A DNA stretch of 64,000 nt from Ulota crispa (lineage: Eukaryota > Streptophyta > Bryopsida > Orthotrichales > Orthotrichaceae), in assembly GCA_963920765.1 (NCBI GenBank), contig OY987250.1, forward strand, positions 9,230,409 through 9,294,408. Reading direction: 5' to 3'. The notes under the pieces are model-generated. The model made no database searches, was not told the origin of the DNA, and worked only from the letters and a program-made list of their open reading frames with translations. Below, piece after piece: positions 53-58,838 of the stretch (positions are counted from its first letter, which is position 1; each line of letters starts with the position of its first letter). The position numbers and the translations under genes were made by a program.

Positions 53-291
53 TTAACCCTTAAAGGACCGAGATACTATAATACATAGTATGTACGCTGC
101 TCTATAACTAGCATTTGATACTAACAAAAAATTTTGATTTGAGATCTTGACTACCTCACTAGAACAGCATTGACCTATATTCTAACTTCTTAATTGATCT
201 TAAACATAATAAAAGTGGATGCACTCCAAATACAAAAAAATACCCCGTAATATAATGACCGCAAAGGGTTGCTTGGTCCTTTAGAGGTTAA
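53..291. mobile_element. TTAA-flanked MITE (short family, copy 1)
   Basis: A 239-bp element bounded by TTAA on both sides, with inverted ends TTAACCCTTAAAGGACC and TTAACCTCTAAAGGACC. A second copy in the opposite orientation lies at 28757-28998 and is similar along its whole length, roughly 85% by eye. It has no coding capacity. TTAA targets and CCCT-type ends are typical of piggyBac-like elements; Sola3 elements also use TTAA. It ends about 50 bp before the snoRNA promoter. Confidence 0.85.
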
Positions 292-340
292 AAAGGTCTG
301 CGCAATCTCCGCAAAGCCGCTAATCCCTCGTCGTTGGACG

Positions 341-430
341 AAACCCTAAATGAAACGGCAAGGTCTCGACGAAACGTCGACGAGAACCATATAGAAACCC
401 TAAAACCTTAACCCCCGCTATCTATAAGTT
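341..430 (+). promoter_or_regulatory. Telo-box/TATA promoter of the snoRNA cluster
   Basis: Two exact telo-boxes (AAACCCTAA) lie at 341-349 and 395-403, followed by a TATA-like CTATCTATAAG at 418-428. Telo-boxes are known in promoters of plant ribosomal-protein and snoRNA genes. The GC content is higher here than in the surrounding AT-rich DNA. The transcription start is inferred to lie near 450; nothing in the sequence fixes it. Confidence 0.6.
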
Positions 431-449
431 TGAACGCCCCTCTTCTCTT

Positions 450-1127
450 ACGTATCTCTCCGAGTCGCGGCTTACGGCGGCAATCGTTTGTGTGCTTGCT
501 TGTGCTTCTCATGCTTGTCTAGATGTATCGTTTGTTTAGATCCATGTTCAGTGTATCTTGTGTCCAATTTCGGCACCTTTTAATCTGTGAGCCGGCTTCG
601 TTATTGAAGTCAAGCTCCTTCTAGGTTACCGAAAGAAAGACGTGATGCTCTAAAGCCCTACGACTTCGAACTTTAACAGCGCTGGGGTTACGTACATACA
701 CAACAGTTCTCGCCTAATGCGTTCGGTCTTTGCTTCATTTTGTCTTTTTAATTTTATTATTGATTCGCTTGACATACGGCTATGCCGCATCGAGTGAATT
801 TTTCCGGTGTCGAGATCTGTTTGGCATGCGTCAGAAGACACTCGTAGATAATCTTCTGGCAGTATTTCCTGTTATGCTCGGTAAACACACTTAACCCTAA
901 GTGACTGAGCTTAGGTTTTGCCTTTCTGCTACAGTTTCTTTTTCACTCTTTGTCCGTCGAGTGACTTACTTCACGGGCAATCTTTATATTGCCGGTGGCA
1001 TTTAACGCTCGTAGAGAAACGCGAGGTTATAATTCTTGCTTTCCTTTTTGTGGATTCAGGATTCGCTCTTAAGCAACAGTCCCTTGCAGCTTTTTGTAGT
1101 TACTGTTGCTCTCAACCAACTATAATA
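450..1127 (+). ncRNA. Probable leader of the polycistronic snoRNA precursor
   Basis: This stretch between the telo-box promoter and the first recognisable snoRNA has no convincing reading frame and is richer in G+C than the flanks. It is inferred to be transcribed as the 5' part of the snoRNA precursor. A two-hairpin fold ending in an ACA trinucleotide at about 770-890 could be an H/ACA RNA, but the hinge lacks a proper H box, so I do not call it. Confidence 0.35.
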
Positions 1128-1339
1128 AGGTAGCAGCGCCCATAAACAAACATGTAGCAAATTAATTATAGGATCTTATTAGCAAGAGAAAAATGATGAG
1201 TTTGCACGTTTTAAAGAGCTGACTGTGATCGCACCTAATACCAACACTAATGTTTTATGTTCACATGCTGTACATCCTTGTAACTACCTCTCATCACTTC
1301 TACAGATTATGGGTACAGTGATGGTTATGGGTGTTACCT
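1128..1339. mobile_element. TA-flanked MITE, AGGTA family, copy A
   Basis: A 212-bp element with ends AGGTAGCAGCGCCCATAA and its near inverse, each followed by TA as the target duplication (1126-1127 and 1340-1341). Relatives lie at 2101-2358 and 12888-13206, with more diverged ones at 52030-52393 and 53224-53617. A TA target is typical of Tc1/mariner-type elements. It sits inside the presumed snoRNA precursor, just upstream of the first guide RNA. Confidence 0.8.
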
Positions 1340-1409
1340 TATATCGCATGCTATGTTTGCACGTCTTTATTGAAAGAGTCCTCTTTGGCTGGTTTATTAT
1401 GTGATTATA

Positions 1410-1492
1410 TTTGGTCGATGATGTCAAAACAATGACAAGCATATATCTGAGTGGCAAAGTCACTTGAAGATTCATAGGATACTGAGACCTAA
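1410..1492 (+). ncRNA. U27: C/D box snoRNA, U27-like (18S rRNA Am28 guide)
   Basis: C box ATGATGT at 1418-1424, D' CTGA at 1447-1450 and D CTGA at 1482-1485, closed by a short terminal stem (GGTC with GACC). The stretch before D', GACAAGCATAT, is complementary to the conserved 5' region of 18S rRNA (ATATGCTTGTC). The fifth base before D' pairs with the A that is Am28 in yeast (snR74) and Am27 in human (U27). rRNA sequences were recalled, not searched. The guide before D was not assigned. It is the first of four snoRNAs on the same strand. Confidence 0.85.
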
Positions 1493-1523
1493 GCATGGTA
1501 TTAAAGATTTTTTTATATATTCT

Positions 1524-1616: not shown

Positions 1617-1638
1617 ATTGATTTGCTTCGTTTATTCG

Positions 1639-1720: not shown

Positions 1721-1752
1721 TGAAATGTTTGTTTGTTTTTTTAAGTCTGTTC

Positions 1753-2518: not shown

Positions 2519-2821
2519 GGGGCATCTCCATTGTTCTAGGCTCATTCAAAGTTTTCCATCTGCCTTGGCGAGGCCCGAAGGCTCTCAATCTCCACCCATG
2601 ATTTTTGAAAAGGTGGCCTTACACTCCAGCACACCCCATAAATAAGCAATTTACCACTTCTCTAGGGAAGTAGAAGATAAAGCTCACTAAACTTAAGGTG
2701 AATAATGCATGAATAGTGGCTTGAAGAGTGGCTTGCTAGGCTTGCTAAATAAGAGAGTTTGAGAGGGGCTTGGACACTTTTCATCTACTTTGAGCGAGCT
2801 CGAGCCATTGGTGGAGATGCA
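2519..2821. mobile_element. Probable MITE with GGGGCATCTCCA ends
   Basis: The segment begins GGGGCATCTCCATTG and ends with the inverse CATTGGTGGAGATGC, giving a short terminal inverted repeat around about 300 bp of non-coding DNA. GCATCTCCA-type ends occur in Tourist/Harbinger-like MITEs. The target duplication is not clear, so the family is a suggestion. Confidence 0.5.
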
Positions 2822-3589
2822 CTAAGTTCCACACATTTCCACAAATTCTCTAGAAATTGGGGCAAGAAACTCAAATGTGCATTTGAATCAAATGTGGACC
2901 CACTTGGAAGAACACCTCTTTTATAGTAAAATTAGTTTATGTACCCATTGTACCAACAAAGGCAACAAAAATATCCTTGCAACAAACAAATTGTGCAATT
3001 TGTCAATTTATAAATTCAAATTGTTCTACTCACAAATGCTAACAATCCAATTCCAAATAAAGCCTCACCATAAACCACATTACACATGTATCCCTCTCTT
3101 CCATGTTGGTCCTCTACTAGAAAAACGTGCACATTGTTGGGCAACACTAACTCCTATATATGCATGGAAGATCCTAAACCTTGCAGAAGCAAAATCTAAT
3201 ATATATAAAAGAGAATACAACTTTTTGAGCCACTCATTTTGATTGGGTGAGAGAGTGTTGTGGTAGTATAACCTCTAGTGACCTATTGTTAACTTTTGGT
3301 GAAATGGCTCAATCTGCTTGGTTGAGAGAAAGTGTTGTGGTGTGACTTCTAATGACCCATTATACTTTATTGTTAACTACCACATTAATCATGGAGCTAC
3401 TCACTTTAGGTGCAATTTGTTAAATAGAAAATGTAAAAGGTACAACAATAGAAAACGTAAGAGGTGCAACTTGTTAAATAAAAAAAATGTAAAAGGCGCA
3501 ACTTACATGCATGGAATACAACTCATAGTTGCACTCAAACTCTTTACTTTTCATCCAAAATGGGGTCTTGGGATTCTTTTATAGATATA
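2822..3589. other. Gene-free AT-rich stretch
   Basis: No convincing gene. A short imperfect tandem array built on 'gaaaatgtaaaaggtgcaac' lies at about 3400-3510. The rest is unremarkable AT-rich DNA. Confidence 0.5.
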
Positions 3590-4358
3590 GATATCACAGT
3601 TTTGACCAAATCTATTATTTGAGGTGAAATATTACAATGATTGATTGAGTTCTAGGTGGAAAATCTCTAGTTTTCATGTTTGTGTGGTTTTGGATTCAAT
3701 TGCTTTGTACAAGCTTTATTTGAGAAGAGTCTTATATCTCTAAAAAGTAGGGTTTCCCACCTTTCCAAGAGGAATAATTTCACATAAAATGGATAAAAAT
3801 AGAAATCATAAGGTGTAGCTAAGTGGACAAAAAGGGTCAAAATTTCCACTTTCTTTGCTACCCTAAAACAGTTTTACAAGAAATTTGATAAATGCTATGG
3901 AAATTCCAATCAATGGAAACAATCAAGAATTGGCCTTAAATGTAGGATGACAAATATTTTAAATGAAATGTTAGCACCGGTCCAATAGATCTTTGAATAT
4001 TACAATTGTGTTGATACTGTATAGAAAAAGAATACAAGCGTATTTCTTACACAATTTGAATTTTTTAGAATTGCACAATTGAAATTTGGCATTCTTTTTG
4101 AATATTTGATGTATTGTGTTGTTGCTATGATCCATCTTTGACCAAAAATGGATACGTATTTTGAGGCTATGTTGTATAAACACCATAGTTTATCAACTCA
4201 CAAACTTGATTCTATTGTTGTTTTTTTGGTTGGATGCAAAATTCTTGTGATCACAAGCATTCTTCAAGAACAATTTCCAAACTCTTGTGCAATTTTACTC
4301 TATAGCCCAAAAACTACTCTCCTGAATCAAAATATGGTTTGGTGGTCTCAAGGGTTAA
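3590..4358. mobile_element. TTAA element, long family, left-truncated copy
   Basis: This segment matches the body and right end of the elements at 6398-7309 and 26217-27116, including the tract around AATATGGTTTGGTGGTCT and the terminal AAGGGTTAA (TTAA at 4355-4358). The left terminal repeat is missing; homology starts near 3590. It is non-coding; the small open frames inside it are repeat sequence. Confidence 0.75.
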
Positions 4359-6397
4359 AGGTTGAAGGAGTTTCCACAAAAAAACTGTCTAACATTGCAT
4401 TTTTTTGCATTACATTTTCTTGGTGCATTGATGTAAAAATGAAAATTGAAACTTATTTATGAAATTTTTGCAATAGAAAAGGTAGAGCAATATTTATGTA
4501 ATGTGTAAAACAACTTTCAACCCATTTGACTAAACACATTGAAAGATTAAAACACTTAGTTAAAATTAAAGGTTTTTGTATACTTTGGGCCTCTTTAGAG
4601 AAATATTTTTGGTTGGCATGAATTAAAGTTTTTTTCCATTGACATCTATATCTTGTTGAGTACACTCATGAAAAATTTCAATGGCAAACTATGAACGTAA
4701 CTTATTCTAAATTGCTTTGTAATACAAGGTGGCCTAAAAACTTGGCAATATATTAGCAAGTTCAAGATAACTTTTGGTGTATGGAGTAATTTTTTTTCAA
4801 ATAAAGTGATCAAAATATCGATCTAATCACATTCCACAAATCCTAATTTTTCAAAGTTAAACTAATAATTAATGTGTATATCAATGCATATACCTCAAAA
4901 CATTTATCCTTCTCAAGTGTCCATGATTTCTACTAAGTGAATGCATGTCACCACTCAAAAATGACTCACTTCTAGTAGTACAGTGACCTCCAACAAGTCC
5001 TCAAGTTCTTCAAAACTTGAAGAAGATGAGGATTGATTTCAAAAAATGTGAGGACCTATTGGAGACCACTATACATTTATCTCTAGTAAACCACAAAATT
5101 GTATTCTATGAGTTTGTCCCTTGAGCCTTTGAATGGAAAATATAACTTCATAGTAGTAAAAAGAAATTGAAAATTTTTTAGGATTTGAAAACTTATTGCT
5201 TCTATGTGTGAATTTCATCATGGAGTGACCTTTGTTTATGAGCTTGTAGTGAACCTTAAAAAGGGAAATTAGTTGTGAGTCATAAATTAAAAGAGTGCAG
5301 GTGTGTTTAGTACATGCTTATGAGAATGTAAAGCTTGACTTTGAGCACAAGAATTTATTTGTCTCTATTTATGACTTGCAACTTGCATTTCTATAATTTC
5401 TTGAAGGACTGTTTCAATTTATTGAGAAGAATCACAATTTGCTCCAAATTTGCAAAAAACCACTTGAGAAAAATTTCAAACTAATAATAAATTTTTGGAG
5501 CCCAGAGCTTCAAACAAGGAACCCAAAGCACCAAATCCCATATTTCTTGGTAAAAAATTTATTTGAAATTTTATTATTTTAAAACCAATTTAGAAAGAGA
5601 GATATGTTTTTTTTTTATAAAGTGGTTACTGAATCAATTAAAAGCCAAAACTAATCTTGAGATGTAAAATTTTAGGGATAATGGAAAATGGTTAAGTCTA
5701 CATAGGTGCTAATGAGCCCCTAAGCTGGGGAGCCCTAGGATACTCCGCAACTAAGGTGCTTAGTAAACTAGAACCCTTGCATATCCTCTCCATACTTCTT
5801 AGCATGTTAGTAGAAAGCTCAATTTTTTTTGTTTGTTTTGGTTGCGTTGATTAGGATATTCTTTTGTTGATGTTCAACAGAAATTAATAGAAATCAACAC
5901 ATTTTTGTTGAACATCAATAGAAAAGTATCCCAATCAACGCAACCAAAATAACAGAAAAACCGAATTTTCTATTAGCCAACGTCTTGGTCCAAGTCAAAT
6001 TATGCTACCCAACTTGCCCAAGAACTTTTGAACAAATATCTAAAAATTTAACCATTGGATTTGAGAACTTTTTCCTTTAACGAGACAAAGATGATAAAGC
6101 CTACCACTTGTGTCAAAATTTTGAGAACATCCATTCAAAATTGAGTTTGTACCACCATACTAGAATTCTCAAGTGTTGGTTGAACATACACTTGACCGTT
6201 TGGGGTTAAGTACCAATGCAGCCTCCCTTTTGATACAAAAGCTGACACTATTTCAAATTTTCAACTGTAAGTCTATTAGGAAATCAAATTTCAAATCCAA
6301 AAATGTAAGGTAGTATGCTCAAATTGCAAACCATGTCTAGTGAAGAATCCCATAGGTTGTCAAAAATGGTAATGTAGTGGTCCTTAAATGGACCTCT
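4359..6397. other. Gene-free stretch with a foldback repeat
   Basis: AT-rich DNA without a recognisable gene. At 5824-5957 two arms of about 50 bases, sharing GGTTGCGTTGATT and its inverse around a short spacer, form a foldback that is probably a small MITE of unknown family. Confidence 0.5.
5824..5957. repeat. Foldback repeat with GGTTGCGTTGATT arms
   Basis: The left arm TTTGGTTGCGTTGATTAGGA and its inverse TCCCAATCAACGCAACCAAA bracket a second pair, TTGATGTTCAACAG and TGTTGAACATCAA. The structure is nearly a continuous hairpin. No target duplication was identified. Confidence 0.7.
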
Positions 6398-7309
6398 TTA
6401 ACCCTTTAAGGACCACACGCATTTTCACAAAACCCACTAAAAACAAGGGTTGTAAGCTTAGATGTGCAATTAACTCAAATATAGACTCATTTTCAATAAT
6501 TCAACCGTACAAATGGGAAGTACAACTTGTTCACTTTAAAGCACCAAAATTTTAGCTAGATCTATCATTGGAGGTGAAACATTATAATGATTGAGTGAGC
6601 CGTATGCGGAAAATCTCTAGTGTTTCATGCTTGTGTGGTTTTGAATGTTAACACTTCATGCAGGCTTTGATTGAAAAGAGCCTTACATTTCTAGAAAGCA
6701 GGGTTTCCCACCTTTCCAACAAGACTAGTTTCACACAAAATAGACAAAAATAGCAATCACAAGGTGTAGCTAAGTGAACAAAAAGGGTCAAAAAACCCAC
6801 TTTCTTTGCTACCCTAAAACGGTTCTACAAGAAATTTGATAATTATTCTAGAAAATCCAATTGGTGAAAACAATCAAGAATTGGCCTTAAATGTAGGATG
6901 ACATATTTTAAAGCCAAAACAACAACGCTATTTTAGTAGATCTTCAAATACTACAATTATACTACTACCATATAGGAAAACAATAGAAGTGTATTTCTTA
7001 AGCAATTTGATTTTTTTTAGAATTGTGCAATTGAAATTTGACATTCTTCTTGGATGTTTGATGTATTGTGTTGTTGCTTTGATTCATCTTTGAGAAAAAA
7101 TGGATACATATTTTGAAGCCATGCCGTATAAACATCATTATTTGTCAGCTCACATACCTGATTGCATTTTATTTTTATATGGATGCAAAATTCCTATAAT
7201 CACATGCGTACTTCAAGACCAAATTCCAAATTATTGAGTAATTTCAACCTACATGCCAAAAACCACTCCCAATGACCAAAATATGGTCACGTGGTCCTTG
7301 AAGGGTTAA
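6398..7309. mobile_element. TTAA element, long family, complete copy
   Basis: A 912-bp element with TTAA at both ends (6398-6401, 7306-7309) and inverted ends TTAACCCTTTAAGGACCAC and TTAACCCTTCAAGGACCAC. Homologues are at 3590-4358, 26217-27116, 35213-37053 (opposite orientation) and around 57591-58757. No transposase frame is present. Note that the terminal repeat itself contains an internal TTAA (CCCTTTAAGG), which matters for the nested insertions seen elsewhere in the window. Confidence 0.88.
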
Positions 7310-13531: not shown

Positions 13532-14173
13532 GAGGTTGCTTTAGAGCATCATCAATGCATCCTCGAGGAATGGAGCAGGGAAATGGCCGGTCTTGTGTCT
13601 CTTCTCGTCCCCTTAAGTTTGCAGTCCCTTTCATCAGTGGGATCCTCCCATGTCACAACCCCCTTTGCAATTCCAGGCACTAGAAAACACATTGGTGAGT
13701 ACTTGCAAGTTGTTGCTGAGAAGAAGTTGCTAGCTATTGCAGTAGTAGCAAACGACAGCAAATGCAGCGGTGTTCCTAGTGCATAGGGAAATGAGAAAAT
13801 TTGTTGTCTCAAGAGGTATTTTTGACAGGGCCAGCTCCTACTTCTGCGTTGCCATGGTTGCATTGGAGCCCTAAACATACCTCCAACTTGCAAGTAACTG
13901 ACTCCCATCAAGAGAAACGCTGGTGCAGCCCTCATCCCCGTCTTGGGCTGATGATGCTCTTACTTTGGTACGTTACCGCATGACTCATCACTTGGCCACT
14001 TGGAAGCGCAATGTAACTCTTTAGATATATGAATTTCTCGACTTGGAAGCCTCAAATTTGTTTTTTTGCAAATTCATTGTTGTTGACTTGTTGCTAGGCT
14101 TGCCAAGTCCTTTAAAAAGTGTTTGTTGCAATTATTTTTGATGAAAATCTTTGTAGCAATTGTAAATATTTTT
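13532..14173. other. Gene-free spacer with moderate GC
   Basis: Several short open frames overlap here on both strands, but none resembles a known protein and none has supporting structure. It could hold a non-coding exon or degenerate repeat; nothing in the sequence decides this. Confidence 0.35.
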
Positions 14174-14485
14174 AGGGAAAAGTTTGTGGATATCCCTGGA
14201 GTTTGCTGTATTTGCATAGATATCCTTGATTTTTCAGAAATTGCACAAATACCCTTGGACCATAATTTTTAGGCATTTGTTTGGTGTGCTTGTATTTCCT
14301 TCATGACCAATGTTGAAGAAGGGAATGTAATGAAACAAAAAAGAAGCAACGTGCACACAAAGGAAGAAGAGAAGTGGCATGCACAACAAAACGAACGCTT
14401 GAAAATTTTGGTCTTGGGGTGTTTGTGTACTTTTTGAAAAAGCAAAGGTACCTATGCAAATATTGCAAACTTTAGGGATTTTCCC
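14174..14485. mobile_element. Foldback MITE, GGGAAAATTTCATGG family, copy 1
   Basis: Inverted ends around 'ggatatccctggagtttg' and 'caaactttagggattttccc' with a long imperfect foldback interior, including GTGCACACAAAGGAAGAAG. This is the first of seven copies in the window, each about 310-325 bp. Confidence 0.8.
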
Positions 14486-14637
14486 ATATTTTTATAGTGC
14501 AAAATGTCAAGAAATTAATGCAAGGCAACCTGAACACAATAACCAATGTATACTAAATTATGCATTTAGGTTGCTCCAAACTTAATTCTTGACATTTTAT
14601 ACTATTTAAGTACTTACTAATACAACAATAATTTTAA

Positions 14638-14950
14638 GGGAAAATGTCATGGATAGCCCTAAAGTTTGCAATATTTTCATAGATATCCTTGCTTTTTCAA
14701 AAATATCACTAATACTCTTGGGCCAAAAAATTTAGGCGTTTGTTTTGTTAAGCATGTCACTTCTCTTCTCTCTTTGTGTGCACACTTCTTCTTTCTTGTT
14801 ATGCGTGCGCACAAAGGAAGAAGGGAAGTGGCATGTAGAACAAAACAAACGCCTAATTTTTTTGGCCCAAGAGTATTAGTGATATATTTGAAAAAGTAGG
14901 GGTATCTATGAAAACATTGCAAACTTCACGGGTATCCATGAAATTTTCCC
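14638..14950. mobile_element. Foldback MITE, GGGAAAATTTCATGG family, copy 2
   Basis: A 313-bp, almost completely palindromic element. The left half (GATATCCTTGCTTTTTCAAA onward) is the inverse of the right half. Flanked by TAA on both sides. Because of the palindrome both strands show a nearly identical 75-80 residue frame, which is not a gene. Confidence 0.88.
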
Positions 14951-17718
14951 TAATTTTAATCAATAATTACTACAATAAACAAATTTCAAAGGGCTTGTAA
15001 ACAACAACAAACTTGCAAAAAGTAAACTAGCAATGTTTATGTCATAAACCATGTGATATATTAATATCTAGAGAGTTGTTTGTTCCTCCAAGTGGCCAAG
15101 TGATAAATCATGAGGTAACTTTCCATGGTAAAGGCAACCTAATTGTTGAGGCAACCAAAATGCAATATTTAGTGTACGTTTTCCAATGAATATACCAAAA
15201 TATGGCATTTGGTGTTGCACACAAGTTTTAAGAAAGAATGTGGCAAAATCTAGTGTTACATATACTAGTTTATATACCACAATAATTTGTATATGACACT
15301 AATTTGCATATGTTTGTTTATATGATCATTCATTCAATAGAAAGGTATTTTCCAATTTGAGGCTAGAATAATTTCAAAGTAAAAATGCACATAGGTTCAC
15401 ATAGTTTCTCATATTGCATTGAATAAAAAAAAGCTGACTATTGGGTGTTGCATGTAGTAAGATTAATCACAACATAAATTTAAAAATTGGTAATGGAACA
15501 ACAAATCAAAGAATGTTTCAAAAAACTAAATCATACCAGTACCTCAAAATAAAGGTACTAGGAAATGGGGGTCAAAATCATGTAGCTTCCTCTTGTAGGC
15601 AATGAAAAAATGACTATTTTTGCATTTTTTACAGCCCTTTTAATTATATTATTGGGGCAATTGTATACTTGTATAAATGCAATGATCATTCAACAGTGTT
15701 AAAGTAAGACATAAGACATTATATAGAATCTTGGCCACCAAATGATAACTTTATCCAAATCTCCATTTCCTACTTCAATATGAACACTTACATTTTAATT
15801 ATGCCATTAACTTATATGGAACTTCATTACTTATGCTTTTAACTACATTGAAATGTAAAAAAATCTCAAGAATTTTTTACCAAAACATCAAATAAGGCCC
15901 TTATTTGCCCAAAATTGTATAAGGAATAAGAAGTTGTTAAATCAAATTGAAATAGATGGCATCAAATAAACAAGTTTACACTCTAAAAGAAAAAATGGTT
16001 CATCCTACAAATGATGAAATAGAAGGCTTTTATTTGTTATCACTAAAATCATTCAATGGAATGAAAAAGGCCTCTATCTAATGCCTTAATAGAAAAATCC
16101 AAAAGGAAAAGTCTAGCATTTTAACTCATTTTAATTTATCTTGTAAAGTTGATTGTTTATGCAGCAACTTATTACACATTGATTTTAAAATACAATTTTT
16201 TTATTTTAAGAAAGAGTAAAATTTAAAACTATGAACATTTGTTTCCTTCTTTAAATGAAACAAGATGAGACACTCTTTATTGAGGATAGTGTTTATAGGA
16301 ATAACTTATGCACAAGCCCTCACAAGATTATATATTACCATAAAGTACATGTTTAAAGTCTAAAAGCAATAACATGCAATATTTGAAGAATGAAAGCCTA
16401 GCTAGGGAATTATCACCAATAAGTAACTTTGAAAATTTGTGTTGTATTCATTCATTATCTAATTAATATTCAAAAACAAAACAATTTTCATCTTTACAAT
16501 AGAAACTAGCAGCAAGAGAGGATTCTTTGCCTCAAACATTCTTTTTGCTCAACAAAATATCTCTTAACAACAAACAATACTCCATTACAAGAATGTCATG
16601 TATATGAAGTGATAATTAATTGATCTTAAGGGCATGAAAAAACTTGTTGATTATTTAGCTTAAAATTCTCTTTTTTGCATTCAAATCAAAGAGGTGTGCT
16701 AAAAGATTTTCAAGTTCATGACTTATTTTTGAAAAGCAAGATGATTGAGATCATGGTTTTCGAGATATCATAAAGTGAGAAAAGGGCCACATATTGGGCC
16801 ACCATGTAATTTTTAGTACATTCTTTTAACATGAAAATCAGATCAGTTTTTAAAATTCAAAAGTGGTTAGTTGTGATTAACTGTAGTACAATAATTCCTT
16901 GGAATTTGCATTAGACCCACATAATCTAAGTAGGCTTGATGCGAATTTTGGGCAATTTGAAATTGGAACCGGTTACACTTGTGTTATCAAATAAAACAAA
17001 AGTGCTATCTACATCATTTTTGTGAAGAAGAGATGAGAAAGGTACTACTTGAAGAAAACATGTCTTAAATGAGTGGAAATTAGTAATTTGGTGCACGTTA
17101 AGTGTTACTCATTGTTGTGCTTATCTATTTGGTAGTGTAGGAACTAAATTACTTAATGGTGATTTAATTAACCTAAAGTCTATGCATTTTTGAGGTATGG
17201 TTAAAGCACCACAGGACATTGATACATAGAAGATAAAAACAATAGTAGTCAATACCTAGAAAACTAGAAGTTGCTACACCACTAGTTAGAGCATACTATA
17301 CCTAATGATTTCCACATGTTTTAATATGTAGAGTAATATTTAGACAACAAACAACCCAGTTTGCTTAGTGAAGTAGATACAATTGAGTAACATGTCACTC
17401 AATATCTCACTTCTAAATTTGGACAACAAGCTACACTCTCATGACCTCATTTACCTTATATTTATCTATTTATCTTATAAAGCATTGGATGTTTGTCAAT
17501 CACCAAACGTTCAAAAAGAGAGGAAGGAAAGGAGAAAAAAAATGGTGAAAAGGGTCGGATTAGGGCTGGGAGGGAGGGTTGGTCAGGGCCATAACATTGT
17601 TGACCCGGCTCCAATCCTCCCCAATTGTGGAGGGATATTCCCCCCGAGATACCTGGGGGGAGAGTTTAGTTATAAATCATGGAAGGTGATTGGTGCAATC
17701 AATACTTATCTAATGACA
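14951..17718. other. Gene-free AT-rich stretch
   Basis: About 2.8 kb of AT-rich DNA with no recognisable gene, transposase fragment or tandem array. The last 200 bases before the gap become purine- and G-rich (AGGGCTGGGAGGGAGGGTTG). Confidence 0.5.
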
Positions 17719-40431: not shown

Positions 40432-41481
40432 TTAACCCCTAAAGCCATGTTGTCTGCTCAGGGGACAAATCGGATTTCGGGCAGGTACCTTAGGCCTCAA
40501 TTTATGTTTTGATTTTTTGAAACTTTTTCTGAAGATAGAAAAACACATTAGCTTTAGGGGAATACAACTTTTATTCCAATCTATGCCCAGGAGCAAAAGT
40601 TAAGTTCAGATAAGCAAAAATTTATGGAGATCGGGCAAAAAAAATATATACAAAAACTTGATTAAAAAAAAAAAAAAAAAAAAATCTTATAGGTTAGTGT
40701 TTTTTCTACATTTGAAACTTTGATTCATTCCATTTGGACTAGTTATGAGAAAGTTATGGACAATCTTGTTTTTTGGGCAATTCAAGCAGCTTCTTGAAAA
40801 AATCACTTATAAAGTTCATATTTGGATGCAAGTTAAACATTTTTCAAAAAAAGTTGTTGGAAAGGGTGAAGTTTGCTCTCTCAAGGCTGGGCCACACAGA
40901 GATGAAAACAGACGTTTTTGAGGCTACGTCTAGTCAAACGCGCATATTCTCCCTTTTTTAGCTACCTTTATCGTTTCACAACTCCGGCTCCAAACGCCGG
41001 TTTGAGAAGCTTTAAAACAAGCGGTTTGCACCGGAATTGCTTTTTTCGGCATAGTTGTCCTTGGAAAAAGTGCCAAATGGCACTGTCTTTTACATGATTC
41101 ATTATTGCGTGTGTGGAATTTATTGTTTCAACCCCTAAACATTGACGCAAACGAAAAACGTCCGTTGCCTCCGAAAAACGCCTCTATAGCCCAGAAAAAA
41201 ACTGATTTTGATATGATTTTTTTCTAGAAGTGATCACAAATGCGTAGTGCACCATGGAAGGCAAAAATAAAATTCACCATATACACTCATAACTTTAGTT
41301 ACCCCAAGTTCAAAATCACTCAATTAGGTCTCAAGTTGCCTTTATTACAATTTTCATGGAATGAGTATACTATTGCCTTTTGCAACTTTTTGAGGCAATA
41401 TTGTTGGTGCATAATTGCAAAAAATTGTAGAAGCCAAAGTCAAGGCAGGCCACGGTGACCCACTTGACGCTTAAGGGTTAA
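40432..41481. mobile_element. TTAA element of about 1,050 bp
   Basis: Left end TTAACCCCTAAAGCCATG, right end inverse CGCTTAAGGGTTAA, TTAA at 40432-40435 and 41478-41481. A poly-A tract lies inside near 40663-40684. No transposase. This is the only copy of its family in the window. Confidence 0.75.
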
Positions 41482-42456: not shown

Positions 42457-42876
42457 GGGAATTGATATGGGCACACCAAGGGGTTGATCACTTGATATAT
42501 GCACATCCCATGGGTAAATTTTAGATTTTTATCATCAAAAAGTTGAATTTGAAAATTTTGAGTTTGGATTTGGACTTAGAGACCTTGATTTAATCTAGAA
42601 TCATAAAAAAGGTTGCAATTGAACAACAACCAATGAAAAAGTTTCTCTTTTTTTTTTTCAAACAAAGGTAAAAGTAATACCTTTCCCCTACCTAAGCTTT
42701 TTCACTGGGTGTTGTTCAATTGTAACCTTTTTTTTATGGTTCTAGACTAAATCATGGTCTCTAAATCCCAATTTGAATTCAAAAATCTCAAATTCAACTT
42801 TTTGATGGTAGAAACCTACAATTTACCTTAGGGGGTTGTGCATGTATTCACCCCGGATGTGCTCATATCAATTCCC
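42457..42876. mobile_element. MITE with GGGAATTGATATG ends, copy 1 (hAT-like)
   Basis: A 420-bp foldback with ends GGGAATTGATATGGGCACA and TGTGCTCATATCAATTCCC, flanked by an exact 8-bp direct repeat TTTAATTT on each side. An 8-bp target is typical of hAT elements. Inner inverted segments such as CATCAAAAAGTTGAATTTGA are conserved with copy 2. Confidence 0.82.
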
Positions 42877-45800
42877 TTTAATTTCATGAAGTTTTAGTTT
42901 CATAATATTTTAATTCAAAAATTTATACCTTGTGTTGTAGTGATTTATTTAATTATATTTTAATACAAAAAAAGAGGGTTGCTATTAGATGGCATGCTGT
43001 TTTGTAAGACTAAGGTGAAAATCTCATATTTTTTAGTTCCTAAAGAATGTAAAAATTTAGATGTTTGTCATTGAAAGGTTGAATTTGGGAGTTTTGATTT
43101 TACGTTTGAATTAAGAGATCTGGTTTTAGTCTAGACCACGGAGAAGAACAAAATTGACCATTGTCAACATAAAGGGCAGATTTTTACTTTTACGGTTCTC
43201 TGTGAAAAAGTTTAAAAGTTTCACTTTGGCTCTCACAAAATGCCATATCATCTCATCCCAACCGGGAATAAGAGACGGTCGTTTTTGTAGGATCCTGTGT
43301 GGCCTGCTGGAACCGTCGTTTTTCAGAATCTCCGGCCGAAACAGCTGGCTTCGTTTTCTGTGTGGCCTTGGCATCAAATAATCTTATCATTGGGATTATT
43401 GTGTTTCAATTTCATTGCAAGGTTATTAACAATTTAAGTTTTTGTTCAATTTCATACTTTCTTCTACTTAATGTTTTCTTTAAGAATGAAAAGTAAGTAT
43501 ATCTTTTTTTTCCAAAGATTCTCAACTCATTTTCCACCATAAAAAAACAAACCCCAAAACTTTGTGGTGCACAATTTTTAAGTTAAAAAAATTCAAAATC
43601 AAATAATCCAATCATGCAAGGTGCAAAAAAGTTGGTTTTTTACACTCTAAACACAAATATCTTGCAATCTGTGCGGTCAAAGTTTTTGAATTTTCTTCAC
43701 ACATTCTTATACTAGTCTAGTACAAGATCCTATGGTTCATATGCAAAGAGATAAATTCTCAAACTTTTCTACTCTTTGCCATAGAAATGGCAGTATTGAG
43801 TAGGTCTCTTGACAGAAAAAAAGGCCCTAGGTCTTTAGGGGTTAAAGGGCCTCATGTACACAGTTACATGTGAAATTTTGTATTTTTACAAAATCTAAGC
43901 TCATAGCTCAGGAATCCCCCCTCACAATGTAGCATTCCCTCCTCTCTTAGCTTTGTAATTTTCCTTTAAGTGCTAGCCAAAACAACTCTTGTCTTAAGGC
44001 CCTTGAGCTTTCTATTTGGCTTTGTAGACAAATTGGAGACAATTTTCTCCCATTATGCTTGGACACACCTCCATTGTATTATTACTATGTCCTCATCCAA
44101 CCAAATTAAGGTCACCCTTACCCAAATGCCTTGCTTTTAAGAGGGAGCATTACAATGTGTAAGGTACCTCCTCTTTGGCCTTTTTCAAAATAAAGTGTTT
44201 TCTATCTTTGAGCTTTGTTCTTAAGCTTGGAATGCCCTATTTTGAAAAAGACCCTTGAAGAGGTGCTTTACCCTATGCACAAAGACCTAGCTAGGGGATT
44301 CAATTATTTGCATGGTAACCTATGTTTGATGAATTTTTGGAGTTTTTATTGAGCTATGCTTTATAAGGGAAATCCCCTATAAAACAATTACACAAAGGAG
44401 ACCTTTGGTACTTCAAATTTCGTAATTTTTTCCTACACAAGGACCATTTTATTAAATTAACATTAATCCAACACACTTTATCCTTGCCAAAAATCTTTTT
44501 CAATTATAGAATTTGAAAAGACCTAAACACACAATCATGTTGTCTAGCATGCACCACACACCAATACCACATCATTATAGAGAATGTCTCATTTAGAAAA
44601 ATAAATAGATTACAATTAGCATCATTAAAATAAATAAATAATTACATGACTACATCAATATCATAATTCAACTTTACAAAACTGCGGGATAATGCTCAAT
44701 GAGAAATGTTCAGCTTTTCATATTCTCCTAAAATATAAACTGGGTGACTCGACCTAATCACCTAACTACCTCGAGATTGCAATCAAAGGAAAAAAGAACA
44801 AAACAAAGGTTGTATCGGAATACAACTCAAGCAAAACAAAAAGTCTACAAAGATATACATTTAAAAAAAGAAAATTAAAAAAAAAGAAAAAAAATGTTAC
44901 TATAAAATTTACCTTGCAAATTTTCCATATTTGTGCAAATATAAATAGAAATGACTAGATTTCTAACTTTATTAACGCTTCTTTTTGTTGCACTTTCATT
45001 AATTTATAATCAAGGTACATGATTTTTCATGATAATTAGATTATACATTGAAGTAAAAACTTGATTGGTGAGGCAAACAAGCTTGGCAAGTTGATATTTT
45101 ACAGAAGATTTTACTAAAATTTTGTTTATGATTTGCAAACATACTTTTTGGTATTGGTATATAAGCCTTGCAATATGCCATATAAAGTTTTTATTTTCAA
45201 ACTTTGAGTTACATAATGCAATATAGGGATTGTGTTACTAGGATTTTTTCTCCAAGTCATAATAGGTGGATCTTCAAATTTTGGAGTATGTTCAATAACA
45301 CAGGTTTTAACATTAGACTTATGACTATTTAGACTTTTAAAGCAATGAACGCAATATACCTATTTTTTACTTTTGTTCTTCCAATCTACAAACATATAAT
45401 TTTTTTCTTGTGATGAGGTGATTAAAAAACAATGAAGTCGACATAGTAATGTAAAAAAAATTGTGAAAGTGATAATTAATTTTAATAATAAACAAAACCG
45501 AGAAAGTTAAAAGCAGTAATTGAATTTACCAATGCCACCACAGTTTAATTTTGATAAAACGTCTTTTATTTTTGTGAGCAAAAACCACCCTTCTTCTAGC
45601 TGCATGGATTTTCAAATTACTGAACGAATGTGTGTATAGGTTGCAAAGATATAGTATAGCTTTTACACTTCTTGTCTATTAGGTGAAACTATATTGTTTT
45701 TATCAATAAAATTAAAACCAGTTTTTAAGTTTCAAACTACGACTTGATAGAGATTAGGCTCACAAATTTTATCTCATCAGATATTATGAGTGACTTTAAA

Positions 45801-46424: not shown

Positions 46425-46822
46425 GGGAATTGATATGTGTACCACACCCTTTGAACTACTATACCACACCCCGGGTAAATTTTAGATTCTACCATCAAAA
46501 GGCTGAATTTGAGAATTTGGAATTCAAATTTGGACTTAGAGACCATGATTTAATCTAGAACCATAAATTCAACAACACCTAATGAAAAAGTTTAGCAAGG
46601 AAGAAAAGTGTTACTTTTACTTCTGTTTATAAAAAACCATAAGCTTTTTCATTGGGTGTTGTTGAATTGCAACTTTTTTTATGGTTCTTGACAAAATCAT
46701 GGTCTCTAAGTCCAAACCTAAATTCAAAATTCTCAAATTCAGCTTTTTGATGGTAGAATTCTAAAATTTACCCAGGGGTGTGGTACAGTAGTTCAAAGGG
46801 TGTGGTACACATATCAATGCCC
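46425..46822. mobile_element. MITE with GGGAATTGATATG ends, copy 2
   Basis: A 398-bp foldback with left end GGGAATTGATATGTGTACCA and right end GGTACACATATCAATGCCC. The interior is homologous to 42457-42876. No target duplication is visible at this copy. Confidence 0.8.
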
Positions 46823-49569: not shown

Positions 49570-49889
49570 CGAAAATTTCATGGATACCCCTGAAGTTTAC
49601 AATATTTGCATAGATACTCCTGATTTTTCAGAAATTGCATAACTATTCTTGGATCAAAATTTGCAAGCGTTTGTTTTGTTGTGCATGTCACTTTTCTTCT
49701 TCCTTTGTGCGCATGTTGCTTTGTTTTTGTTTCATTACATTCCCTTTTCAACATTGGTCATGAAGGAAGTACAAACAGAACAAATAAATACCTAAAAATT
49801 ATGGTCCAAGGGTATTTGTGCAATTTCTGAAAAAGCAGAGGTATCTATACAAACATGACAAACTTCAGGGGTATCCACGAAACTTTCCT
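49570..49889. mobile_element. Foldback MITE, GGGAAAATTTCATGG family, copy 4
   Basis: Left end GCGAAAATTTCATGGATACC, right-end inverse GGGGTATCCACGAAACTTTCC, about 320 bp. It lies just past the N-terminal side of the transposase remnant. Confidence 0.82.
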
Positions 49890-51434
49890 ATAATCAAAAT
49901 CAAAGTCAAAACAAAACAATAGGCAGCACATATTCTTGAAGGAAGTTGTGTCACAACAACAAAACAAAATCACTTGGCAAATTGAGGCTCCATTAGCAAA
50001 GCGTTGATTGGAGGACGCTAACTTGCTTTGTTCACTCCAAAGTGATAAGAGTATGTGTGAGGTGAAAATGTAATTTTGTATACCAATTTTAACGCCTTAC
50101 TATTGATGATCCTTCAAGGAGCAATATTGCATTCTAGGAGCGGGCTCCTTGTATACAGACCCTTCACATATTTCAAGCATAACATCATTTTTATATCATC
50201 AGACTTTTAAGATTGCACATAGAACGTTTCTTACTCAATTAAACAATTACTTTGTGCATAAGCATTATTCATTTAACCTGAATATAAGCAATCCGAAAAC
50301 ATTACTTTCATGGAGGCACTGTTTCTCTTATTTTTCCACAACAACTCAACAAACTTCAAGAAAACACAAACATGGAGGCCACTTTGTGTTATTTTGTAGG
50401 GCGGATTATGCTGCAAAATTTGGATTTTGAGAGGCATTGCACAACTTTTCTACGTAATCACGGATTCGACATTCATATCCATTGAATCAACTTCAGTCTG
50501 TTGCAAAATTTCATTCACAGGAAAGGACGTTCTGATTAAAGTTTCCACGTTGAGCTTTGCCTTCCTTGTCATCCTTCATCTCCTCTCTTCTTTTTGTAAT
50601 GCCCTCTTTGCTGAACATTACCCTAAACTTATTTCCATGGAGAGCCCTCCTATTCACTAAGATTTGAACAACCTTGAGTCAATTGTTCTAGTCTTGAAAG
50701 TTCAAGGCCATATAGCAAACCCACCCACCAGTGACCGGACATAATTTATTCTTGGACCACTCGTCAATCTGTCGACTCTTTAACATCAACATACAAAAAT
50801 TAAGAGATTCTCCTTTGATATTTCACACCCACCTAACTAAAAACTCATTGCACGAGGGAGTTGCAACAAATATACATTTTCTCAGTTTTTGACTCTCACT
50901 TGTATCTCTAATCAGTTCTCCCTCGGGGCAGATTTTCATGTGCTTGGCAAGTTTGAGCAGATACAAGTTCGATGTTTGTAAAGCATATTCTTACATTCAC
51001 AATAAAAAATTCCCCTAATTCCTTGTGAGGAGGAAGAAAACAAGCACAATTGCTTTAAAATCTGAACAGTGCTAACATTCAAAATGTGTCTTGTCATCAG
51101 TTCTTTAACAACTCCCATGGGTGAAGTTTTCTTTCTTTTCTCATTAGATGTATGATATACAATTTTAAAGCTCTCAACAATGCATTTCCAATGAGATATT
51201 ACACTCCCCCTTTGGAGCAAAATTGCAGGTTTTATCACCCGCTACAACAGGTCGCATGATTGCAGTGGATTGTCCTCAAAAGCACAAGTTCTAACTACCA
51301 AATTTGGTCATTTCACAATCAAACAAAACTCCTAAGTAATGATAGTTCCACCTTACAGGTCAAGTTTGGGCATTTCTTCTTTTGTAATAATCCACACTAC
51401 CATGCACAAGTATCATTCCACTATTTAATCCTTT
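49890..51434. other. Gene-free stretch
   Basis: Several open frames of 75-100 codons on both strands but no known motif and no supported start. It may contain further degenerate transposon sequence belonging with the pseudogene; I cannot show it. Confidence 0.4.
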
Positions 51435-51587
51435 GGGAAAATTTCACCTGAAGTTTGCGATATTTGCATAGACATCCCTGCTTTTTCAGAAATTACACAA
51501 ATATGCTTAGACCATAATTTTTAGGCATTTAGTTGTTGTGCTTGTCCTTCCTTCATGACCAATGTTGAAGAAGGGAATGTAATAAAA

Positions 51588-51897
51588 GGGGAAATTACTT
51601 ATAGGGGCACAAAAATGAAAGATATTACAAATAGGGCACACTTTCAAAATAATTACAAATAGGGGCACAATTTCAATTTTTTTTTGGTAAAGTCTAGTAT
51701 AATTATGGTCTGAAAATTGATCGATTTAAATACATCACATTAAATGTTAGCCAACTTCCAAAAACCTTAAAAGCCTCTCTAAAACAGGTTTAAGTCCGGA
51801 AATTTCACTGAAGGGGTCTCCCCTATTTGTAATTATTTTGAAACTCTGCCCCTATTTGTAATTTTTTTCATTTTTGTGCCCCTATTGTAATTTCCCC
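51588..51897. mobile_element. Mutator-like foldback element with exact 9-bp duplication
   Basis: A 310-bp foldback with ends GGGGAAATTACTTATAGGGG and the inverse of GGGGAAATTACAATAGGGG, flanked by GTAATAAAA at 51579-51587 and 51898-51906, identical. It is inserted in the foldback MITE at 51435-52430 and is homologous to 22926-23342. Confidence 0.92.
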
Positions 51898-52029
51898 GTA
51901 ATAAAACAAAAAAGAAGCAGTGTGGGCACAAAAGAAGTTAGACGGGAAGTGACATGCACAACAAAACTAACGTTTGAACATTTTTGTCTAAGGGTATTTG
52001 TGCAATTTCTGAAAAAGCAGGGGTATCTA

Positions 52030-52823: not shown

Positions 52824-53117
52824 GTACGGTGCATGACTCTTATAACTAACAACTATTGGCCCAATAAGAAATATTAATCCCTCAACGTCTTGGGTACCAC
52901 AAACTACACGGAAAAGGGAGACAAATTTTTGCTATTGGGGCATTGAGGGGTTAAAGCACAACACATATATCTATTAGCTCAAAAATAATTCAACCACCAA
53001 ATGGGACAAACCCTAAGCTTCATCTTGGTAGACTCGAATTTTTGAAATTTTTTTTTGACAAAACCTTAGGCTAATCACTTGGATTGGGAGTTGTTGGTTA
53101 TAAGTGTCATGCACTGT
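52824..53117. mobile_element. MITE, ATACGGTGCA family, copy 2, carrying an insertion
   Basis: The inverted homologue of the element in PUS1 intron 2 (10039-10242), with ends TACGGTGCATGACTCTTATA and TATAAGTGTCATGCACTGTA. Its extra length is explained by the 81-bp TTAA element at 52874-52954. Confidence 0.82.
52874..52954. mobile_element. Minimal 81-bp TTAA element
   Basis: Reads TTAATCCCTCAACGTCTTGG ... GGGGCATTGAGGGGTTAA. It is bounded by TTAA on each side, and its host repeat exists elsewhere without it (10039-10242, where the matching site is ATACTAAAGCAC on the minus strand). This gives a direct empty-site comparison. Confidence 0.88.
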
Positions 53118-53223
53118 AGTTTTACTAGAATTGTCACATCAATAAGAATTTATGGGAAATAATTTTACATTCCAAAAGCATTGCAAAAGCGTTGCAACCC
53201 TTACTTTTCTAAAGTAGTAATTA

Positions 53224-54496: not shown

Positions 54497-54590
54497 ATCA
54501 ATATGGAGTTGCATGTTATATATGAAGTGCATGTGGACCAATGCAATGTCTGAGTACACTCCATATATAATATGCAACTCCATATTGATT
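54497..54590. repeat. Hairpin repeat with ATCAATATGGAGTTGCAT arms
   Basis: The left arm ATCAATATGGAGTTGCATGT and its inverse near 54571-54590 pair over about 28 bases with a 35-base loop. It directly abuts the TTAA element starting at 54589. Confidence 0.75.
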
Positions 54591-55069
54591 AGCCCTTAAG
54601 CGCCCCAGCAACGAGATCCTGTCTTTGGGGATTTTGACTTTTTCTCACTTTTTCTTTTGATGTGTACGGTGAAAACAGTCGTGGCTGGTCCCATCAATAA
54701 AGAAGTTAGTCCTTTTTCAAATCCTACAGTCACTTTTTCTGAATGTAATTTTCTAAGCTCTGGTGGCCATTAACCCCTAAGCGCCCAAATGATAGTATAT
54801 TGTCCCTCAAAAAGCTGGGTCAACTCAATATTGACCGTTATAATCTCATTGCACGTCCGGTGAAACAACTTCCAATCAAGCCCAGCATGATGAAGATTAT
54901 TTCCACTAACAATTCATATGGTCGGATCTTGTGGATCGTATTTTTTAATCCACAAGGGCACTTTTATTGCACACAAGTCAAGCTTCTTTCATTTCAACTC
55001 TAGGCGCTCAGGGGTTAAACCCCTATTTTCTCCTAAACCCTAAAACAACTCCGGGGGCTCAGGGGTTAA
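54589..55069. mobile_element. TTAA element with a second one nested inside
   Basis: Outer ends are TTAGCCCTTAAGCGCCCC (54589) and CCGGGGGCTCAGGGGTTAA (55069). The left TTAA is changed to TTAG. The inner element at 54770-55018 has the same type of ends (AAGCGCC), so one family member has inserted into another. Confidence 0.72.
54770..55018. mobile_element. Inner TTAA element, AAGCGCC family
   Basis: A 249-bp element with ends TTAACCCCTAAGCGCCCAAA and TAGGCGCTCAGGGGTTAA, TTAA at both borders. Nested in 54589-55069. Confidence 0.82.
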
Positions 55070-55085
55070 ATATAGAATTTGACAT

Positions 55086-55846: not shown

Positions 55847-55979
55847 CGTCCCTAGTATATTATGGAAAGGCTATGAATAAGACATGTACTGACGGAGATC
55901 ATTGGGGAGGTGAGCGGAATTAATGCCCTAACAAAGTTCGAGCCTTTGACCTTAATGGCTGACTTTAACCCTTAACCCT

Positions 55980-56617
55980 TTAACCCCTCAACACCCAAGG
56001 GGCGGTTTTTACGCCCATTTTGTTCAAGGATTCCAAAAGTTTTTTCAAGATTTTTTTTGTGGTTATTATTATATCCAAATTGTTTTTGAAGTTTAGTTTT
56101 AGCATCAAGAGTATGATCTTGAAAATGAATTAACATGATTTGTCTATTCAAGATTTCGTGCAAGGGTGTCCATTGCAAATCTTCACTTTCTAGTGTTGAA
56201 GGCTCTTGGAAATGAGCCTTAGAACTTGGAGAAAAAATTGCATTAAAAATTCATTTAAAAAAATTGTACAGTAGATTTTGAAAAGCCGTAAATTGATTAG
56301 GGTTATGCATGTTGTACTTTACATACTCATATTTTTTTGGTACCCTCAATTTTAGGTTTGAGATGCAAAAAGAGGATTGAAAGACTTCAAATCACTTTTG
56401 CAGTTTTAACAACCTCATGATCAAACATTATAATCTTTCAATCCATAAGTGAAATAGTTGTGATTTCTTTTTGTATGCAATCTATAACATGTCTACTTTG
56501 AGTTTGTACAATTACATTTCAAAGAAGATTGATCAAATTGATTGAAATGCCAGCATTTTGTTCACTTTCAAGCACATTCTAAGATACTCCAAAATTGCAG
56601 GGGCGTTGAGGGGTTAA
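55980..56617. mobile_element. TTAA element with CCCCTCAACACCC ends
   Basis: A 638-bp element, ends TTAACCCCTCAACACCCAAG and GGGGCGTTGAGGGGTTAA, TTAA at both borders. The right TTAA (56614-56617) is shared with the next element. Its ends resemble the 81-bp element at 52874-52954. Confidence 0.8.
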
Positions 56618-56914
56618 CCCTAAAGGACCAAGTGGCTGTTCAACAGCCACTTGAGAACTCGGGTAGGGTCATATGGAGTCAAATTTTATTTGACTTTCTC
56701 CAAATTGTTACACAAGGTGCAAATATGTATTCCCTAAGTGGAAATGTAAATTTTTCCCTAATCAGATGCCCGGTTCAAAAGTTGTGTTGTCTAAAAGGAA
56801 TTGGGCAGCTTAGGCAGTTTGGGAATCTTTGGAGAATCTTATGCTAAAACTCTCATCAACTTCAAAAATTTGGCAAGTATGTAACTATACAAACATGGTG
56901 TACGATTGTCAAAG

Positions 56915-56961
<47 letters not shown>

Positions 56962-57594
56962 ATCACATTTTGAAGGAAGTCAAACTTTGTTAACTATGTT
57001 TGGGCAGTTTCAAGAAAATAAAATTCCTCTAACTTCAAGCCCTATTATCTTTCAATCTATAAATCCAAAGCTCTTGAAACTTTTTTCATATGTTTCAAAT
57101 GTTTGTCTCTAACTTTTCACAATTTGGATCTCAAATAAAAGACTTCATCATTGCACAAGAAATCATGAAAGAATGACTAATGTATTGCCAATTTGCTTAA
57201 CCTCTTTGCATTGGAGGATGATTTAGAGCAAGCTAAATTGCAATTTTGCATCTGAAAATTTTTGTGAGTGAACCTAACATCATATACTTGTGAATGGTCA
57301 AAAAGCTAAAATTTGTGTAGAGCAAAAAATTTACTCTAAGAAGGATCAAAATCTACTGACCTTGATTTGCAAGAAAAAAAATTAGTTTTTCTCACTTCAA
57401 ACATTATAATCTTACAATCCACGTGGTCAAATGGGCTGATTTTTTTTGCACATATTATTTTATTTGTTTTGCACACTTTTATATAGTTGAAATTGAGAAA
57501 AAAGGGTTTTAATTTCAATTTTGGGCAATGCACTAAAAGTTGGCAGTTTCTGAGATTTTTTCTCAAAAAACACCCTTGGTCCTTTAGAGGTTAA
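56614..57594. mobile_element. TTAA element with CCCTAAAGGACCAAG ends
   Basis: A 981-bp element, ends TTAACCCTAAAGGACCAAGT and TTGGTCCTTTAGAGGTTAA, starting at the TTAA that ends the preceding element. Contains 40 A at 56915-56954. No transposase. Confidence 0.82.
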
Positions 57595-58753
57595 GGACCA
57601 CACCTATTTTCACACAATCCACTAAAAAGAGGGGCTGTCATAACATTCAGTAGCACTAGTAAAGGCTGCCCTCCCTCCAAGAGAATGGTGTGGAATATTC
57701 CACGCCCTTTTTTAGCTATGGGGACACTTGGCTGAATTTGTTAGAGTTTATGAAAGGGAGGTTTAGTTCAGTGCACACACATCAAGGGGGGCAGATGTGT
57801 CAGAAAATTTATTTTTTATTTTTTTGTCAAGATGAAGTTCGTGGATGATACCTGAAGAGAGGGAACGGCAGCCTCTCTTCAAGCTACTAAATGTTATGGT
57901 AAATATAGATGTGCAATTGACTCAAATATGGACCCATTTTCAGTAATCCAACCGTATGAATGGGAAGTACACCTTGTTTACTGTAAGCACCAAAATTTCA
58001 ACTAGATCTACCGTTGGAGGTGAAACATTATAATGAATGAGTGAGCAGTACGCATAAAATCTCTAGTGTTTCATGCTTGTGTGGTTTTGAATGTTAATGC
58101 TTCATGCAGGCTTTGATTGAAAAGAGTCTTACATTTCTAGAAAGCAGGGTTTCCCACCTTTACAATAAGATTGGTTTCACACAAACTAGATAAAAACAGC
58201 AATCACAAGGTGTAGTTAAGTGGACAAAAAGGGTCAAAAACCCACTTTCTTTGCTACCCTAATACGATTCTACAAGAAGTTTGATGATTATCCTGGAAAA
58301 TCCAATTGGTGAAAACAATCAAGAATTGGCTTTAAATGTAGGATGACAAAATTTAAAGCCAAAATGACAACATTATTTTAGTAGATCTTCAAACACTACA
58401 ATTATACTACTATCGTATGAGAAAACAATACAAGCGTGTTTTTTAAGCAATTTGAATTTTTTTAGAATTGTGCAATTGAAATTTGACATTTTTCTTGCAT
58501 ACTTGATGTATTGTGTTGTTGGTTTGATCCATCTTTGACAAAAATTGGATATGTATTTTGAAGCCATGCCGTATAAACGCCATTATTTGTCAACTCACAT
58601 ACCCAATTACATTATTATTTTTTTAGATGGATGCAAAATTCTTGTGATCACAAGCATGCTTCAAGACCAAATTCCAAATTATTGAGCGATTTCAATCTAC
58701 AGGCCAAAAACCACTTCCAGCAACCAAAATATGGTTGCATGGTCCTGAAAGGG

Positions 58754-58838
58754 TTAAACGCTGGTGCAAGTGACCGTGGATACATAGCCCCGTGTATTCA
58801 CAGCAGACGCAAAACGTCCACCTCAATGTTTAAGAGTT
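58754..58838. mobile_element. Short TTAA element remnant
   Basis: Eighty-five bases between TTAA motifs. The right part, CCACCTCAATGTTTAAGAGTTAA-like, resembles the right end of the GGACGGA family (33002, 39704). It is probably a truncated copy joined to the preceding element. Confidence 0.45.

Follow-up and report, generated by a model that had tools for sequence, protein, structure and literature searches.

Inverted-repeat elements of the window

The 64,000-bp stretch of plant DNA analysed here (the window, at its full length) is densely occupied by short miniature inverted-repeat transposable elements (MITEs) that have TTAA borders, CCC-type inverted ends and no transposase of their own, the features by which piggyBac MITEs are recognized. 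The terminal motif TTAACCCYTWARNG is found 27 times in the window at no more than one mismatch, compared with a mean of 0.84 and a maximum of 4 among 100 shuffles, and facing pairs of such ends bound many elements of 81 to 1,029 bp. Seventeen elements were resolved, belonging to approximately ten families as judged from the blastn listing, and CCCYTNANNG-like ends are common to these families. Paired elements were called from their facing ends and flanks, and three further copies (2814–4358, 41128–41481 and 55972–58757) were called by homology (Table 1). Summed as intervals and with two unrelated inserts excluded, the 17 elements comprise 10,178 bases, or 15.9% of the window. Divergence within families in the window is about 8–21%, rising to about a third for one divergent F3 copy.

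A first-pass annotation, made from the letters of the window alone, had described about fifteen elements in at least seven families with lengths of 81 to about 1,050 bp. Both counts hold up, and so does the 81-bp element. The longest candidate (40432–41481; 1,050 bp) is probably not a single element because its right-hand 354 bp form a divergent F3 copy with 65–67% identity to the 33002–33368 family; the end at 40432 is therefore left without a certain partner. Unpaired ends also lie at 43845 and 58840. The annotation had stated that the window holds no transposase, and indeed neither the domains of 30 transposases from the same genome nor the upstream coding region described below (ORF1, for open reading frame 1) gave a tblastn match in the window at an E value of 0.1.

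Abundance in the genome and the TTAA target

The genome comprises 274.8 Mb in 157 contigs. A genome-wide search for the terminal motif with TTAA borders, which the first-pass annotation had put forward as a check, returned 38,551 exact occurrences of TTAACCCYTWARNG (19,246 + 19,305), compared with 173 (93 + 80) for the same motif read backward. Four queries were also searched genome-wide, namely F2 (6398–7309), F1 (28757–28998), e12 and the end shared with e7, and these gave 2,398, 3,725, 4,874 and 1,486 first-look candidates, respectively, which are not verified copy numbers. Only the 40 best candidates were scored for each query, so that the identities are biased upwards: 91–92% at 98–100% query coverage for F2, mostly 89–94% for F1, 89–91% for e12 and 76–79% for the end shared with e7. 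Among the 39 full-length e12 copies listed besides that of the window, 38 are 644–655 bp in length.

The base outside the TAA of these ends is strongly constrained. It is T in 95.6% of exact ends, with 38,551 TTAA against 1,793 VTAA (4.4% of 40,344); the VTAACCC... ends (891 + 902) compare with 240 (122 + 118) in the backward control. Nested insertions tell the same story. The F2 terminal repeat holds an internal TTAA (TTAACCCT-TTAA-GGACC), and in the copy at 35213–37053 an F4 element has been inserted at this site and is flanked on both sides by TTAA. In the copy at 55972–58757 the same site is occupied by e13, and e12 in turn occupies the left TTAA of e13, an order of events that we infer. 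Elsewhere in the genome, query position 9, the first base of the internal TTAA, is the exact start of five of the 40 scored F2 copies, and three of the 40 end at position 902. One of the five, at C1:34645788, abuts an e12-type copy (C1:34645141–34645791), and the two overlap by exactly four bases (C1:34645788–34645791).

The target is consequently TTAA rather than bare TA, given the strictness of the outer T and the insertions that turn one TTAA into one on each side. The TTAA target claimed in the first-pass annotation is thus supported by the outer-base counts and by the comparison of nested insertions with uninterrupted family members; duplication of TA, which it had named as one finding that would overturn the claim, was the outcome that the 1,793 VTAA and 38,551 TTAA ends spoke against. 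Since nested copies and F2 copies broken at the internal TTAA recur, the F2 terminal repeat appears to have served repeatedly as an insertion target for elements of its own type.

A separate case of adjoining elements was seen at G000:C3:239100–239565, where two F1 copies overlap by exactly four bases, as expected from one common TTAA.

piggyBac transposases in the same genome

The transposase family named in the first-pass annotation as one to look for, DDE_Tnp_1_7 (PF13843), was found in the same genome. The listing holds 120 matches, all over the cut-off and the best with an E value of 1.3e-73; they come from 116 scored of 528 candidates, and some are two pieces of one copy. No PF13843 match was found in 14 control genomes, those named being prokaryotes. 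The domain was confirmed by hmmscan in pieces of element A (described below) and of the L011 locus.

Thirty transposase loci were fetched for comparison of their domains. The median pairwise identity is 35% (435 pairs), which indicates many deep lineages, and the closest pair, L009 and L018, shares 81%. The three catalytic positions are occupied by aspartate in 27, 22 and 26 of the 30 domains, the 15 exceptions being 12 asparagines, two glutamates and one histidine. The L019 domain matches piggyBat (PDB entry 9c0f; 1.2e-21) and PDB entry 6x67 (1.1e-16), which we take to be Trichoplusia ni piggyBac, and the printed alignment with piggyBat places the three aspartates in register. In-frame stops are present in 29 of the 30 fetched domains, L019 being the one without; in the whole listing of 120, ten matches have no internal stop, several of these being partial. 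A cysteine-rich tail was recognized by eye in the L011 frame, and the tail gave no Pfam match.

Three transposase-bearing elements and their ends

Both ends were read for three transposase-bearing elements. Element A (C3:13130262–13135288; 5,027 bp) has the ends TTAACCCCTCATCGCC and TTAACCCTTCATTGCC. Element B (C10:11524996–11530021) has TTAA as its right border, whereas its left border is TTCA, followed by CCCCTCATTGCC. A and B share 90.5% identity in an alignment of 5,029 bases that runs from the left border to a single base beyond the closing TTAA. The third element, C, lies on contig C2, is 5,102 bp in length and carries the ends TTAACCCTTGACCGCC and TTAACCCTTCACCGCC, which are related to those of A and B. 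TTAA followed by CCCYTSAYYGCC is present at both ends of A and C and at the right end of B, and five of the six borders are TTAA.

Of the window elements, e12 comes closest to these ends. Its left end agrees with that of A at 21 of 26 bases and with that of C at 20 of 26, compared with 12–18 of 26 bases for 16 other window ends set against the left end of A. We take e12, from these terminal bases, as a MITE of the A/C type. The sequence TTAACCCYTCAYYGCC occurs 1,264 times in the genome (backward control 0). Among its first 100 listed places, 22 form facing pairs less than 1.5 kb apart, 14 of them spanning 637–663 bp, and no other orientation was found there between neighbours within that distance. 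The e12 family would correspond to the 637–663-bp pairs, judging by length and end type only. A link of the window families to A by extended end homology was also considered and rejected: the 250-bp ends of A found four element copies and one 36-bp match.

The commonest end type is CCCCTAAAGG. One such end follows the L011 transposase match on its downstream side at a distance of 1.9 kb, and the sequence that ends there is 72% identical to the left end of e7 over 366 bp; the inner part of e13 has a counterpart upstream of the same transposase, with 73% identity across 746 bp. Exact 3′ ends were found within 1.5 kb of the transposase domain at three of the 30 loci (L009, L014 and L018). Weaker end candidates with one or two mismatches are present at several other loci, and those at L020, L030 and, further out, L028 (L059) start with TTAACC. 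The first-pass annotation had put forward a search for transposases next to matching ends; A, B and C show CCCYTSAYYGCC-type ends, to which the left end of e12 is close, and none of the transposase copies read at both ends showed CCCCTAAAGG.

On the downstream side of L011, (CATA)n repeats form a microsatellite some 600 bases long (approximately 5173–5793 of the joined stretch) that adjoins the piggyBac transposase.

A coding region upstream of the transposase

Upstream of the transposase, A and C share a region, ORF1, that is conserved as protein (39% identity over 145 residues; E value 2e-23), with one stop in A, and in C it lies within an open frame of 394 codons. The DNA of the two elements gives no blastn match at an E value of 1e-5. 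ORF1 has 89 matches in the genome at an E value of 0.001, of which 36 are followed on the same strand by a listed transposase at a distance of 1.5–4.5 kb (limit 6 kb); random places gave 0.13, in a control that used a guessed length for contig C11. One of the 89 is on the wrong side or strand of a listed transposase, and for 53 the next 6 kb downstream contain no listed transposase in the same orientation. The 36 include ten of the loci fetched for comparison (30 in all). ORF1 found no match in Pfam (E value 10), NCBIfam (E value 1) or the PDB sequences (E value 1).

In one piggyBac clade, ORF1 may thus encode an accessory protein or form the first exon of the transposase gene. It is unlikely to be a captured fragment of a host gene outside the transposon's own machinery. 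The 53 matches without a listed partner would fit such a fragment, read against a listing of only 120 transposase matches (116 of 528 candidates scored), but the 36 placements upstream of a same-strand transposase far exceed the random value, only one match is misplaced, and the region has been kept between A and C although their DNA no longer aligns.

Origin of the window elements

The window elements are very probably non-autonomous MITEs of the piggyBac superfamily, mobilised by piggyBac transposase from elements elsewhere in the genome. The piggyBac source proposed in the first-pass annotation is supported by the 120 listed PF13843 matches and by the three elements that carry a transposase between TTAA + CCCYTSAYYGCC-type ends. 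The transposase would be made by full-length copies at other loci and would bind the short ends (CCCYTNANNG and the bases that follow), excise the element and reinsert it at TTAA, one TTAA remaining on each side. Resident transposases would thus have moved the window families in trans, and the CCCCTAAAGG class may have been served by a transposase clade whose ends were not readable. Most of this activity is probably past, since the family copies differ and all but one of the 30 fetched domains contain in-frame stops; some late activity may have occurred, ten of the listed matches having no internal stop.

Several observations weigh against this reading. Both ends were read for only three of the 30 loci, two of which (A and B) represent one lineage, and the left border of B is TTCA. 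The agreement of the right end of e12 with A (16 and 15 of 26 bases) is no better than that of other window ends. The MITEs examined are not simple internal deletions of A, because the subterminal sequence of A is present in only four element copies. At L011, the search with the CCCCTAAAGG-bearing sequence yielded 1,486 first-look candidates, and this sequence may itself be an independently inserted MITE; no corresponding 5′ end of L011 was found, its 5′ side carrying a complete e13-like MITE, and for these reasons the link between e7 and L011 is not counted. Finally, TA duplication within a strict TTAA target would leave an identical sequence; only the near-invariant outer base and the transposase family speak against it.

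Another superfamily that targets TTAA, such as Sola3, might instead have moved the elements, the piggyBac transposases being bystanders. None of the transposase copies read at both ends showed the commonest end, CCCCTAAAGG, and no search aimed at Sola3 was made, both of which leave room for such a source, but we regard it as highly improbable given TTAA + CCCYTSAYYGCC at both ends of A and C and at the right end of B, an e12 family that nearly shares the left end of A and C, and CCCYTNANNG-like ends throughout the window families. Tc1/mariner-type MITEs that duplicate TA and favour T and A as the flanking bases are scarcely credible: TTAACCC...GGGTTAA can also be cut as T-TA-ACCC and no search for Tc1/mariner transposases was made, but a non-T outer base occurs in only 1,793 of the 40,344 exact ends (backward control 240), a number to which mutation of TTAA would contribute, and we know of no TA-duplicating family with such strictness in the outer base.

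Beyond the piggyBac origin of the window elements, a wider proposal is conceivable, namely that mosses have a deep piggyBac radiation of their own, with one two-gene clade (the transposase and, as ORF1, a separate and undescribed accessory protein), and that it produced one of the largest piggyBac MITE loads among plants; we advance it tentatively and consider it somewhat doubtful.

Relation to known piggyBac elements

piggyBac elements usually carry one gene, and insect piggyBac MITEs are bounded by TTAA. piggyBac is a main genome-engineering tool because it is scar-free. To our knowledge, plants are little known for piggyBac. A large native radiation in a land plant would be a natural source of transposases and ends fit for use in plant cells, and would allow the loading and nesting of a genome by TTAA-targeting elements to be studied; ORF1, if truly an accessory protein, would alter the one-gene picture of piggyBac.

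The elements described here resemble the piggyBac superfamily (6x67; piggyBat, 9c0f) in the PF13843 domain, the three aspartates, the TTAA target and the CCC-type ends, and differ in the plant host, the element length of 5.0–5.1 kb and the extra upstream coding region of one clade. The MITEs are similar to those of insects, which in the available portions of the reports (PMC5199201, PMC9033116) are short, lack a transposase and reside in genomes that hold piggyBac; they differ from the elements in these portions in their plant host and in families with thousands of first-look candidates. In a review of which part was available (PMC10004981), PiggyBac is one of seven superfamilies of angiosperm MITEs, grouped by terminal repeats and target duplication, so that the class has already been named in plants, whereas that part shows neither a transposase partner nor a genome-wide swarm. 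The repeat tables seen in the accessible parts of two other papers list 1,230 PiggyBac copies (0.12 Mb) for Ceratopteris (PMC6890710) and one copy of 75 bases for Stipa (PMC8319324), in contrast to elements that make up about 16% of one window here.

A literature search returned no report of piggyBac in a moss, a weak negative as most subscription journals were outside its reach; the two 'piggyBac' matches in a Niphotrichum moss paper proved to be the word 'piggybacking', and the accessible parts of PMC10794571 and PMC5745447 hold nothing on native plant piggyBac copies. The elements are of an established type; they occur at high load in a group of hosts for which no report was found, and one clade has, unexpectedly, a second coding region.

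Host genome and other features of the window

Table 1. Positions of MITEs, related copies and unpaired ends in the window.
Feature	Position	Strand	Remarks
F1 MITE, TTAA-bounded	53–291	.	239 bp; 86% to 28757–28998
F2 copy	~2814–4358	.	Called by homology; left end decayed, start approximate
Insert in F2 copy 2814–4358	~2913–3609		Not TTAA-bounded
F2 MITE	6398–7309	.	912 bp
F2 MITE	26217–27116	.	900 bp; left border TTGA
F1 MITE	28757–28998	.	242 bp
F3 MITE	33002–33368	.	367 bp; 88% to 39704–40068
F2 copy carrying nested F4	35213–37053	.	F4 in TTAA inside F2 terminal repeat
F4 element	36116–37045	.	930 bp; TTAA on both sides, uninterrupted F2 copies have one
F5 (e7)	38531–39559	.	1,029 bp; right end with 2 mismatches
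Palindrome inside e7	38935–39042		108 bp, 96% perfect; missing from related L011/L058 sequence
F3 MITE	39704–40068	.	365 bp
Unpaired end TTAACCCCTAAAGC	40432–40445	+	
Divergent F3 copy	41128–41481	.	Called by homology; left border TCAA
Unpaired end TTAACCCCTAAAGA	43832–43845	-	
e10	52874–52954	.	81 bp; two ends and little else
e11	54589–55069	.	481 bp; left border TTAG; right end with 2 mismatches; tentative pairing
Element nested in e11	54770–55018	.	249 bp
F2 copy	55972–58757	.	Called by homology; e12 and e13 at its internal TTAA, plus unrelated insert 57639–57905
e12	55980–56617	.	638 bp
e13	56614–57594	.	981 bp; TTAA 56614–56617 common to e12

The genes recognized in the window are a PLATZ match (E value 7.8e-6) and parts of eIF2B gamma and tRNA pseudouridine synthase; PLATZ is a plant family. 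The plastid genome corresponds to contig C157 (112.5 kb; loci L043–L054), of which 10,000 bases are masked and the rest has a G+C content of 25.5%; it carries matK, chlB, rpl21 and rbcL. A plant host, as assumed in the first-pass annotation, is evident from PLATZ, matK and chlB. The gap between petD and rps11 in this plastid, presumably the usual position of rpoA, is only about 190 bases, and contig C2 carries the only rpoA C-terminal domain that the genome search returned. Relocation of rpoA from plastid to nucleus characterises mosses, and the host is thus probably a moss; a plastid G+C content of 25.5% seems low for one. A second match to the large subunit of RuBisCO, with an open frame of 964 residues, was found at G000:C97:118173–118940 (L040) and may represent an organelle copy or a guest organism.

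The 267-bp insert at 57639–57905 in an F2 copy has inverted ends of about 16 bp (CATAACATTYAGTAGC) and no TTAA, and is a MITE of another type. Large inverted repeats with arms of 44–147 bases lie at 14172–14953, 22926–23342, 42513–43135, 46425–46822, 49571–52029 and 59284–60197; the second of these starts with GGGGAAATTACAAATAGGGGC. These repeats suggest additional inverted-repeat families that lack TTAACCC ends.

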